Of a DNA stretch of 64,000 nucleotides, positions 1 to 7,166 are shown one piece after another (positions within the stretch are counted from its first letter, which is position 1; the number at the start of each line of letters is the position of its first letter). Made by a program: the position numbers and the translations under genes. The notes below the pieces were generated by a model, which saw only the letters and a list, made by a program, of their open reading frames with translations, was not told where the DNA came from and ran no database searches. The DNA is from Seleniivibrio sp. (GTDB taxonomy: Bacteria; Chrysiogenota; Deferribacteres; Deferribacterales; Geovibrionaceae). Location: positions 1 to 64,000 of the forward strand of contig NZ_JAJOIL010000027.1 of assembly GCF_021209385.1 (NCBI RefSeq). Direction: 5' to 3'.

Positions 1-138
1 GAGCAGTGCCTTCTTTCAGCGGCAGTGCAGAATATGAAGAAGATAGCCCTTGTGCTGTCATATTTGTTTATATATTTCAGAGAGATGCTTGAAATACCCG
101 TGATAAATGATGAAAATCAGCTTTCGGCTGCGATATAA
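1..138 (+). CDS. C-terminal end of a probable IS transposase (cut by window edge)
   Basis: An open frame enters from the left edge and stops at 136-138, giving 45 residues. It contains the stretch SAAVQNMKKIALVLS, which resembles the conserved end of DDE transposases of the IS5/IS1182 type, where an AxxQNxKK/R helix follows the catalytic glutamate. The catalytic residues would lie outside the window, so the family call is an inference from this short tail. No terminal inverted repeat is recognisable between the stop and the hairpin at 173-204. It could instead be any protein with a similar basic helix. Confidence 0.4.
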   Translation, partial: EQCLLSAAVQNMKKIALVLSYLFIYFREMLEIPVINDENQLSAAI

Positions 139-172
139 ACCGGAAAAAGAAATAACAAGATACAAAAACAAA

Positions 173-204
173 AAACGCCGCACTTCTCACGAAATACGGC
201 GTTT
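173..204 (-). terminator. Rho-independent terminator between convergent genes
   Basis: AAACGCCG at 173-180 pairs with CGGCGTTT at 197-204 around a 16-base loop. On the minus strand the stem is followed by a T-rich tract, so it should end the FUSC-family gene. An A/T-rich flank on the other side allows some termination of the plus-strand gene as well. Confidence 0.7.
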
Positions 205-225
205 GTCATCAGTCTGTGGCGGCTT

Positions 226-4452: not shown

Positions 4453-4624
4453 AGGGCAGCTACGGCTGCCCTCTGTCAGATGATAAAGACATATAAATAC
4501 GAGATCGCGTCGTCATTTCATTCCTCGCGAAGACAAAACCCGTCTCTGCGAGGAGCACCAGCAACGAAGCAGTCTAATGGTTTTAATAGTTTGTCAACAA
4601 CCTTAGGGCAGCTACGGCTGCCCT
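4453..4624. repeat. Hairpin repeat element (copy A) flanked by a duplicated terminator hairpin
   Basis: A ~132 bp element (4473-4604) lies between two identical 20 bp copies (4453-4472 and 4605-4624) of a hairpin with stem AGGGCAGC/GCTGCCCT. Its core contains a strong internal hairpin: CCTCGCGAAGAC (4523-4534) pairs at 11 of 12 positions with GTCTCTGCGAGG (4542-4553), and is followed by ACGAAGCAGTCTAATGG. A near-identical copy is at 7002-7140, between two copies of a different terminator. The GCGAGGAG...GACGAAGCA style resembles dispersed non-coding repeats known from many bacterial genomes. No ORF of note lies inside. Confidence 0.85.
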
Positions 4625-4632
4625 AACTTTTT
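4605..4632 (+). terminator. Terminator of der (right copy, with T tract)
   Basis: The stem AGGGCAGC/GCTGCCCT (loop TACG) is followed on the plus strand by AACTTTTTTC. The identical left copy (4453-4472) lacks this T tract but has an A tract before it, so it works on the minus strand. It would end the lipoprotein gene read from the right. Plus-strand der transcripts would therefore run through the repeat and stop here. Confidence 0.7.
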
Positions 4633-5453
4633 CAGATAAACAGTCCGATGCTCATCAGTATATACCCCAGATAGGTCCCCTTTTCGGCTCCCTCCTCATA
4701 CTCCATATACATGTATCCTGCGGGTGTTCCGCCGAAACTGCCGGCGATGTCTATCTGAGCCAGCTTCCCGTTCTCATCATACGAATACGACCTGTATTCG
4801 TCCTTGGTTCCGTCGCCATCCTCATCAATAATGACGTCGGTTACGTTACTGTCAGCATCATAGGAATAATCAGCAGCATAGTCTATAGCCGGCACAGATA
4901 TGTAATCTTCGTTAAGCTCATAATGGTATGGTTTTCCTGCAGTAAAATATGTGAACAGAGAATAGTCGTCCACAATGCCGTCATTGTCATTGTCGATGTC
5001 GGCTCTGGTTATGTCACCGTCGCTGTTCGTTGTGTAATACTCGGCGTAGTTAAAGGTTCCGTTTGAAGTATAGTCCGATTTCATGGATACAATTGCGTTA
5101 GACCCGTCATAGACCAGTTCCACAGTTTTTACAGTACCCGTGTTTTTGGTTATCGTAATGCCTGTTATGTTCTTTGCCGCATCCCGCGAGAACACATAGG
5201 TATATATTACCTCACCGTTAGAGCAGATTGCAGAACTTTTCGGCGTCCCGTCATCGCAGTTTTCCATTGTTGCCGATCACAGATAAGACTCACTGTCGTA
5301 TTCCAGAGTATAAACTTGGTCTGCTTTGTTGTCAGCATTATCATCAATGATGATTTTTTTGAGCCTCGTTTCACTGCTGCTTCCGGAATCGCCTCCGCAT
5401 GCGGACAGCAGTAATGCCGCGGCTATAATAGCCGGATAAGTTAATTTTCTCAT
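4632..5453 (-). pseudogene. Lipoprotein gene interrupted by one in-frame TGA
   Basis: One reading frame runs from ATG 5453 to the stop at 4632, broken only by TGA at 5279-5277. The first 58 residues have a lipoprotein signal peptide with lipobox LSAC and then GGDSGSSSE. After the TGA the same frame continues for 214 residues. It is rich in D, N, Y and S, with repeated DxDxDG-like strings (DNDNDGIVDD, DEDGDGTKDE) and YD-type repeats similar to calcium-binding or RHS-like beta repeats. The downstream ATG (5267) has no ribosome-binding site, so independent translation is unlikely. AGAGGTG supports the 5453 start. Either a nonsense mutation (or sequencing error) or read-through/selenocysteine would explain it; I favour mutation. 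Confidence 0.65.
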
Positions 5454-5489
5454 GATGCACACCTCTTATAAAAAGTTCACCTATGAACT

Positions 5490-5498
5490 ATTATAACA
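5490..5498 (-). promoter_or_regulatory. Extended -10 promoter for the interrupted lipoprotein gene
   Basis: Read on the minus strand, TGTTATAAT is an extended -10 (TGnTATAAT) about 37 bases upstream of the ATG at 5453. No good -35 is visible, which fits extended -10 promoters. Confidence 0.4.
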
Positions 5499-5663
5499 TG
5501 CATTATGAGCAAATGCCTCTTTTTGGATGTGAAAAACCACATTTTGCAGATTATTCTGGAAATATTGCGCCAGTTGTAATATAAGTCAAAACCTATACCC
5601 TCGTTTTTGCGTCGCAACAAAAAAGAGGCAGGCGTAAGCCAAATACTTATTAAAAGGTGTTAT

Positions 5664-6974
5664 ATGCGTTATGACCTGGCCAAAAGCGGAAACGGCCTGA
5701 CCTATGAGATCCGCAATATTGTCAATGTTGCTAAGGTTCTGGAGCAGCACGGCGTCGAGATCTGTTACGAGAATATCGGCGACCCGGTTGCAAAGGGCGA
5801 GATCATCCCCGACTGGATGAAAGATACCATCGCTGATCTTGTCAGAAACAACAACATGACCTTTGCCTACTGCCCCACAAAAGGCGATTACGACGTTCGC
5901 GAATTTCTCGCGGAACGCACAAACGCCAGAGGCGGAGTGCAGATTACAAAAGACGACATCATTTTTTTCAACGGACTTGGCGACGCAATAGCACGAGCGT
6001 ATAGCTCAATCAGGGTAGATGCAAGGGTAATGCTGCCTGAGCCTACTTACTCAACACACCTTCTGGCGGAAGTTCTCCACGCATCATTTCCGCCCAACAC
6101 ATACAGAATGAACCCTTATAACAACTGGGCTCCCGATCTCAATGAGCTTGAGAAAAAAGTTGAAAGCCACAAATCAATTGTGGGTATTCTGGTCATTAAT
6201 CCCGACAACCCCACAGGTTATGTCCATACCGAAGATGACCTGCGCAGAATCGTCAATATGGCGAAAGAACACGACCTGATGCTCATCTTTGACGAAATAT
6301 ACCTTAACATGGTCTATAACGGTAAGAAGACCATAGCCCTTTCCGACATAATCGGAGACGTTCCTGGTATCGCTATGAAGGGAATATCCAAAGAGTTCCC
6401 CTGGCCGGGCGCACGCTGCGGCTGGATGGAAGTTTATAACGCAGACAAGGACGAAGCCTTCAAACGCTTCACAAATGCCATACTGAACCAGAAAATGGCT
6501 GAGGTCTGCTCAACGACTCTGCCTCAGATGTCAATTCCCCACATAATGACACACCCCATGTACACAACGTACCTGAACGAAAGGCTCAAACATTATGAAA
6601 AACTGTCCAACATCGCTTACAACATGCTGAAAGACTGCCCCTATGTGGTTGTAAACCGCTCAAACGGCGCTTTCTACATGTCAGTAGTGTTCAACGAAGC
6701 GGTTCTGAACAAAAACCAGAAGCTGAACATCGAAATTAAAGAGGTACGCGATATCGTTGATAAGATGTGTGAGGACAAAATGAGCCACGATAAGCGTTTC
6801 GTTTATTATCTGCTTGGCGCAACAGGCATATGTGTGGTTCCGCTTACATCGTTCTTTACATCAATCCCCGGATTCCGTATGACTCTGCTTGAAAAAAATG
6901 TTGAAAAATTTGAGCAGACTGTAACCACCATCAAAGAAAAGATAGTGGAATACGTTGAATCAGGAAGCTGTTAA
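5664..6974 (+). CDS. PLP-dependent aminotransferase, class I/II
   Basis: A fold-type I aminotransferase, 436 residues from ATG 5664. This start is preferred over an upstream ATG (5607) because AAAGGTG lies five bases before it and the 19 extra residues look non-conserved. The PLP-binding lysine is probably Lys243 in GISKEFPWPGARCGW. Other family marks are NPDNPTGYV, DEIYLNMVY and a C-terminal PGFRMTLL arginine motif for the substrate carboxylate. The substrate is probably an amino acid such as aspartate or alanine, but cannot be fixed from the sequence. The gene stands alone and ends at the terminator/repeat structure at 6982-7166. Confidence 0.85.
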   Translation: MRYDLAKSGNGLTYEIRNIVNVAKVLEQHGVEICYENIGDPVAKGEIIPDWMKDTIADLVRNNNMTFAYCPTKGDYDVREFLAERTNARGGVQITKDDIIFFNGLGDAIARAYSSIRVDARVMLPEPTYSTHLLAEVLHASFPPNTYRMNPYNNWAPDLNELEKKVESHKSIVGILVINPDNPTGYVHTEDDLRRIVNMAKEHDLMLIFDEIYLNMVYNGKKTIALSDIIGDVPGIAMKGISKEFPWPGARCGWMEVYNADKDEAFKRFTNAILNQKMAEVCSTTLPQMSIPHIMTHPMYTTYLNERLKHYEKLSNIAYNMLKDCPYVVVNRSNGAFYMSVVFNEAVLNKNQKLNIEIKEVRDIVDKMCEDKMSHDKRFVYYLLGATGICVVPLTSFFTSIPGFRMTLLEKNVEKFEQTVTTIKEKIVEYVESGSC

Positions 6975-6981
6975 ACAAATA

Positions 6982-7160
6982 AGGGAGCTGAAAGGCTCCC
7001 TTAAACTGATGTAAAGCATATAAATACGAGATCGCGTCGTCATTTCATTCCTCGCGAAGACGAAACCCGTCTCTGCGAGGAACACTAGCGACGAAGCAGT
7101 CTAATGGTTTTGTATGAATCTGTAGTTTGTCAACAACCTGAGGGAGCTGAAAGGCTCCCT
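6982..7160. repeat. Hairpin repeat element (copy B) flanked by a duplicated terminator hairpin
   Basis: This is the second copy of the element at 4473-4604. Its hairpin arms are CCTCGCGAAGAC (7050-7061) and GTCTCTGCGAGG (7069-7080), and the right end GTTTGTCAACAACCT is the same. The flanking hairpin here is AGGGAGC/GCTCCCT with loop TGAAAG, a different sequence from copy A, and it again occurs twice (6982-7001 and 7141-7160). Copy B carries about ten extra bases after AATGGTTTT. It also lies between convergent genes. Confidence 0.85.
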
Positions 7161-7166
7161 TTTTTA
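7141..7166 (+). terminator. Terminator of the aminotransferase gene (right copy, with T tract)
   Basis: The stem AGGGAGC/GCTCCCT is followed directly by TTTTTT on the plus strand. The left copy at 6982-7001 has the same stem and loop but is followed by TAAACTG, so it should terminate poorly in this direction. The GGDEF gene on the other strand stops at 7164, inside this T tract. Confidence 0.7.

Follow-up and report, generated by a model that had tools for sequence, protein, structure and literature searches.

The window analysed here, i.e. the whole stretch of 64,000 nucleotides taken from one contig of a Seleniivibrio genome (2.90 Mb, 42 contigs), holds two copies of a short repeat, each framed by two copies of a hairpin and each lying between convergent open reading frames. 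At the first locus, between der (plus strand) and a lipoprotein-like gene (minus strand), the left hairpin copy, AGGGCAGCTACGGCTGCCCT, occupies positions 4453-4472, with an A tract to its left and no T tract; it is followed by a repeat of 132 bp on the plus strand (4473-4604), whose left end is decayed (three mismatches) and whose right end reads CAACAACCTT, and then by the right hairpin copy, again AGGGCAGCTACGGCTGCCCT (4605-4624), with a T tract to its right. At the second locus, between an aminotransferase gene (plus) and a response regulator-GGDEF gene (minus), the hairpin AGGGAGCTGAAAGGCTCCCT stands at 6982-7001 and again at 7141-7160, where it runs into TTTTTT, and encloses a repeat of 139 bp on the plus strand (7002-7140) with a decayed left end and the right end TTTGTCAACAACCTG. 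At the very edge of the contig, positions 1-216 (plus) belong to a probable IS1182-family insertion sequence (IS) of which the contig end has left the 3' portion, comprising the transposase C-terminus (1-138) and a TIR (~202-216). Next to its terminal CTG (214-216) stands the hairpin TGGCGGCTTTTATGCCGCCT (217-236), the right copy of a duplicated hairpin whose left copy adjoins the other end of the IS, on contig C8.

Flanking hairpins and empty sites

An earlier note on this DNA had described a near-identical element between exact hairpin copies of about 20 bp, different at each locus and the same within it, and this is borne out: in both 4453-4624 and 6982-7160 the two copies are exact over 20 bp, loop included, and the cores of the two repeats are 96% identical over 95 nt. 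Left copies retain the A tract and right copies the T tract, which the note had described for the first locus, and the strands of the ORFs are convergent at both loci, just as the note had it. The element RNA is predicted to fold into uncommonly stable structures at the two loci, of -33.8 and -46.4 kcal/mol respectively (z -3.1 and -5.1); Rfam gave nothing at or above the gathering score near the elements, with two weak sub-threshold matches only. The lipoprotein-like gene convergent with der (4632-5453, minus strand) contains an in-frame TGA (...SESYL*SATMENC...), at the position of which the orthologue in the congener G001 reads through, and it is probably a pseudogene.

Empty sites with one hairpin, which the note had expected in relatives, do exist. 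At the aminotransferase locus the four congeners (G001-G004) all have one hairpin and no element; when the two flanks are joined and compared with G003, 117 of 140 positions are equal and the 20-bp hairpin differs by one base. At the der locus the convergent gene is shared by G001, which has a single hairpin there, and is missing at that place in G002-G004.

A MITE family and its probable IS1182-family partner

In the sample of the genome obtained with pattern and DNA searches, the core of the repeat has some 40 partial relatives, and the ends of complete copies turn up at 32 sites if one mismatch is tolerated and at 57 if two are, against 8 for a reversed control pattern. Chance is excluded as the origin of the hairpin-flanked elements, since the pattern recurs genome-wide, and the majority of copies with both ends stand between stems that match each other and differ from locus to locus, as the note had anticipated. 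Complete copies start with CAGACTGATGACAAA and their right end, reversed, reads CAGGTTGTTGACAAA. Both repeats in the window are MITEs, short and non-coding, with imperfect inverted ends of ~16 bp (CAGACTGATGACAAA.../...TTTGTCAACAACCTG): at 132 and 139 bp they lack a transposase, have ~16 bp in common with the ends of the IS and keep its asymmetry, the MITE left end being the IS right end and vice versa, and 20-bp hairpin duplications accompany both MITE and IS here, with a similar picture in congeners. A text search of papers for the core sequence gave no match.

Two further observations concern the relatives of the core. Many dispersed palindromic units of 75-80 bp (e.g. L009, L010, L015, L027, L028), of the pattern ATGAGATCGC..GTC..CCTCGCGAAGAC...GTCTCTGCGAGGA..CGACGAAGCAGTCTCAT, match the MITE interior and have neither TIRs nor hairpin duplications; they look like a separate repeat family. 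At L032 (G000:C8:29800-29990) the flanks of the MITE have the same stem and, apart from one base, an inverted loop (GGGGGCTGAAAAACCCCC versus GGGGGCTTTTCAGCCCCC), presumably by inversion or by a different joining event.

About 15 ends of the IS were found in the host genome at some 100-450 bp from the end of a contig, a position that would be expected if the assembly breaks in a multicopy insertion sequence; the IS is thus seen as two transposase ends only, its middle being unassembled, with both TIR ends found repeatedly beside contig breaks. The ORF (MLKETEDQFQTELYLNIDDLVPKDHLLRKIA...) starting behind one kind of IS end matches the IS1182 transposase model and DUF772. Its N-terminal fragment of 129 aa scores 144 bits (E 8e-42) against NCBIfam transpos_IS1182 (NF033551), whose curated cut-off of 270 is for the whole protein, and a related Enterococcus faecium protein scores 466 bits against the IS1182 model. 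The C-terminal fragment of 45 aa (window 1-138) is 81% identical over 26 aa with the copy of Clostridium carboxidivorans; in the family search this fragment alone had no family match. The congener G002 carries the same IS, likewise broken at contig ends, and no full-length IS was found in congeners; full-length relatives measure 1.5-1.6 kb.

When the flanks of the IS ends were matched by eye via the reverse complement, 14 of the 15 fell into seven pairs, each with exactly the same 20-bp hairpin (L034/L037, L031/L039, L033/L055, L035/L036, L042/L043, L045/L049 and L048/L050), L038 being left unpaired; exact 20-bp hairpin duplications are therefore present in 7/7 pairable IS copies of the host genome.

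Targets and length of the duplication

The targets share no sequence. Most resemble terminators that work in both directions, the stem being bordered by an A tract at one foot and by a T tract at the other. A MITE copy (L008, G000:C7:510-740) lies inside the stem-loop of a CRISPR repeat, in an array of at least 8 repeats GTCGCACCCCTCGCGGGTGCGTGAGTTGAAAC, and the target of L084 is a weak palindrome, AGGGATAATCATATTCCT, with no obvious T tract. The note's mobile, non-coding element is supported; the terminator as its target is too narrow, for the CRISPR-repeat hairpin is also hit, and it is hairpins in general that are targeted. Nor need the stem be perfect, since imperfect hairpins are hit (L069, L081, L084).

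Likewise, the duplication of about 20 bp proposed in the note applies to both loci of the window, yet it is not a fixed length and follows the hairpin. Across 43 two-ended elements (from Seleniivibrio species, a family relative, Clostridium, Vibrio, Testudinibacter, Aminobacter, Rhizobium, Bacillus, Brevibacillus, Alkalihalophilus, Acinetobacter, Enterococcus and an unclassified Bacillota bacterium) the duplication ranges from 17 to 52 bp and is centred on the dyad of the hairpin. The fraction of arm positions that pair is 0.86 in register, as against 0.21-0.34 when the frame is shifted by 1-8 bp, and randomly chosen stretches give 0.25. As elements were admitted to this table only with a duplication found, it tells what is duplicated and not how often; the eleven C. 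carboxidivorans copies in it represent one IS. In Seleniivibrio the duplications are mostly ~17-24 bp long, and many start with A and end with T. In some AT-rich targets (L094, L100, L110) a longer stem could form than the one duplicated, which is just its inner portion, so that the outermost stem base is not always used.

The frequency of duplication was taken from samples chosen independently of it, namely C. carboxidivorans, plasmid relatives and further plasmid copies. The C. carboxidivorans IS, 65% identical, has a hairpin duplication in 11/11 copies, the plasmid relatives in 7/8, and further plasmid copies of the same clade in 2/3 (47 and 30 bp); beside the third of these (E. faecium, L174), whose transposase is annotated only in part, no flanking repeat was seen. 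The eighth plasmid case (L170, Providencia) and L047 of the host genome (G000:C36:3519-3664) have a different hairpin at each end, probably through recombination between copies. In one C. carboxidivorans copy (L092, 3001-4436) the transposase reads as two ORFs of 196 and 264 aa; as the eleven copies are nearly identical, expression may involve a frameshift, or the family may have been recently inactivated.

Mechanism, known systems and significance

Setting out from what is directly seen (the element, the ends it shares with the IS, the whole-hairpin duplication, its dyad-centred variation in length and the empty sites), the reading preferred here, to which a probability of roughly 0.9 may be assigned, is that the repeats are non-autonomous MITEs moved by the host's IS1182-family DDE transposase into hairpins, with duplication of the whole stem-loop. 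Acting in trans, the transposase would recognise hairpins in DNA, in most cases those of bidirectional intrinsic terminators, which would most likely be extruded as cruciforms, and gap repair would then copy the entire stem-loop to both sides of the element. Duplication length would equal hairpin length because the two cut phosphates adjoin at the four-way junction whatever the length of the arms, and the symmetric displacement of the cuts in the AT-rich targets could reflect branch migration of that junction. Extruding 18-bp hairpins as cruciforms is costly in energy in vivo; the hairpins might instead form in DNA that is single-stranded during replication. As the near copy has lost its U tract (the left one being without a T tract and the right one without an A tract), each convergent transcript would read through the near hairpin and terminate at the far copy, both 3' UTRs would gain the MITE hairpin, and the insertion would be nearly harmless.

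Other readings account for part of these data. Duplex palindromes, rather than extruded or single-stranded hairpins, might be recognised through their symmetry by an equally symmetric dimer of the transposase on B-form DNA, flexible spacing then yielding duplications of variable length; the mostly similar size of the Seleniivibrio targets fits this, as does the frequent A...T outline of the duplications, a possible weak sequence preference. However, closely related transposases give duplications from 17 to 52 bp that are always dyad-centred, a span exceeding three helical turns that a protein of fixed geometry would not produce on B-DNA, and the targets have no sequence in common; I regard this account as unlikely. 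The note had looked to a REP-type (Y1) transposase as mobiliser, and a REP/REPIN-like origin with a RAYT enzyme would suit a palindromic, intergenic core whose TIR-less units are common in the genome; yet no match to Y1_Tnp (PF01797) is present in the genome (3% of it missing; controls positive), the likely mobiliser is an IS1182-family DDE transposase instead, the ends match the IS, and the target duplication is long, all of which leaves this origin very improbable. That the hairpins belong to the element, which would carry its own terminator at each end, recalls the terminator-like ends of some mobile elements; this last idea, the least credible of all, is refuted by the orthologous element-free sites with one hairpin, and is at odds with hairpins that differ between loci and are identical within each.

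Hairpin targeting by IS1182 relatives is already known. IS1272 and TnSha1, of the same family, insert into hairpins, including confirmed terminators, without sequence consensus (PMC4923244, PMC5678879), and the size of their target likewise follows the inverted repeat (21-85 bp for IS1272); IS1272, however, replaces or deletes the hairpin with no duplication (PMC5678879; PMC4923244 agrees), whereas in the present elements the hairpin survives in full and in two copies, standing on both sides of the 43 two-ended elements and once in empty sites, so that replacement of the IS1272 type is not what is found. Other IS1182 members of the clade, ISBspe1 of Alkalihalophilus and the E. faecium and C. 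carboxidivorans copies, agree with the present case in their CAGrCTGyTGACAAA-like ends and in whole-hairpin duplications of 17-52 bp, though these are full-length ISs rather than MITEs. Distant IS1182 members such as ISCfr1, of the same family by annotation, have only 25-28% identity and other ends (GGCCGATTCTGTTGAAAAAGTAG), and in them hairpin duplication was looked for and not found. REP/REPIN-RAYT systems and REP-targeting ISs (e.g. ISPpu9) resemble the present one in their palindromic intergenic elements or their targeting of palindromes, and differ from it in that here there is no Y1 transposase, the targets are unrelated in sequence and the duplication is long.

A more general proposal, which I would favour by a small margin over its negation, is that the whole IS1182 clade with CAGrCTGyTGACAAA ends, known here from Deferribacterota, Bacillota and Proteobacteria, makes its cuts where the extruded hairpin joins the duplex, whence a duplication that is the hairpin itself, 17-52 bp long, and that the replacement by IS1272 would be the same attack on the junction with opposite strand polarity.

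Whole-hairpin duplication, its structure-set length and the MITE family are not documented in the literature searched, ISfinder lying outside its scope. IS1182 members have direct repeats of widely varying length in ISfinder, and hairpin duplication may in part be catalogued already. In most DDE transposons the transposase dictates how long the duplication is, and the length is constant; here it depends on the secondary structure of the target, for which there is hardly an explanation other than an enzyme working at the foot of an extruded hairpin. The copies described here exemplify in nature a route with stem-loop duplication that PMC5678879 had sketched as no more than a possibility, and one of them shows that CRISPR repeats can be hit. 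Insertion between convergent genes, with a terminator left for each, suggests a low-harm mode of spread; and because the duplication is set by target structure, the extrusion of hairpins or cruciforms in living cells becomes testable from genome sequence alone.
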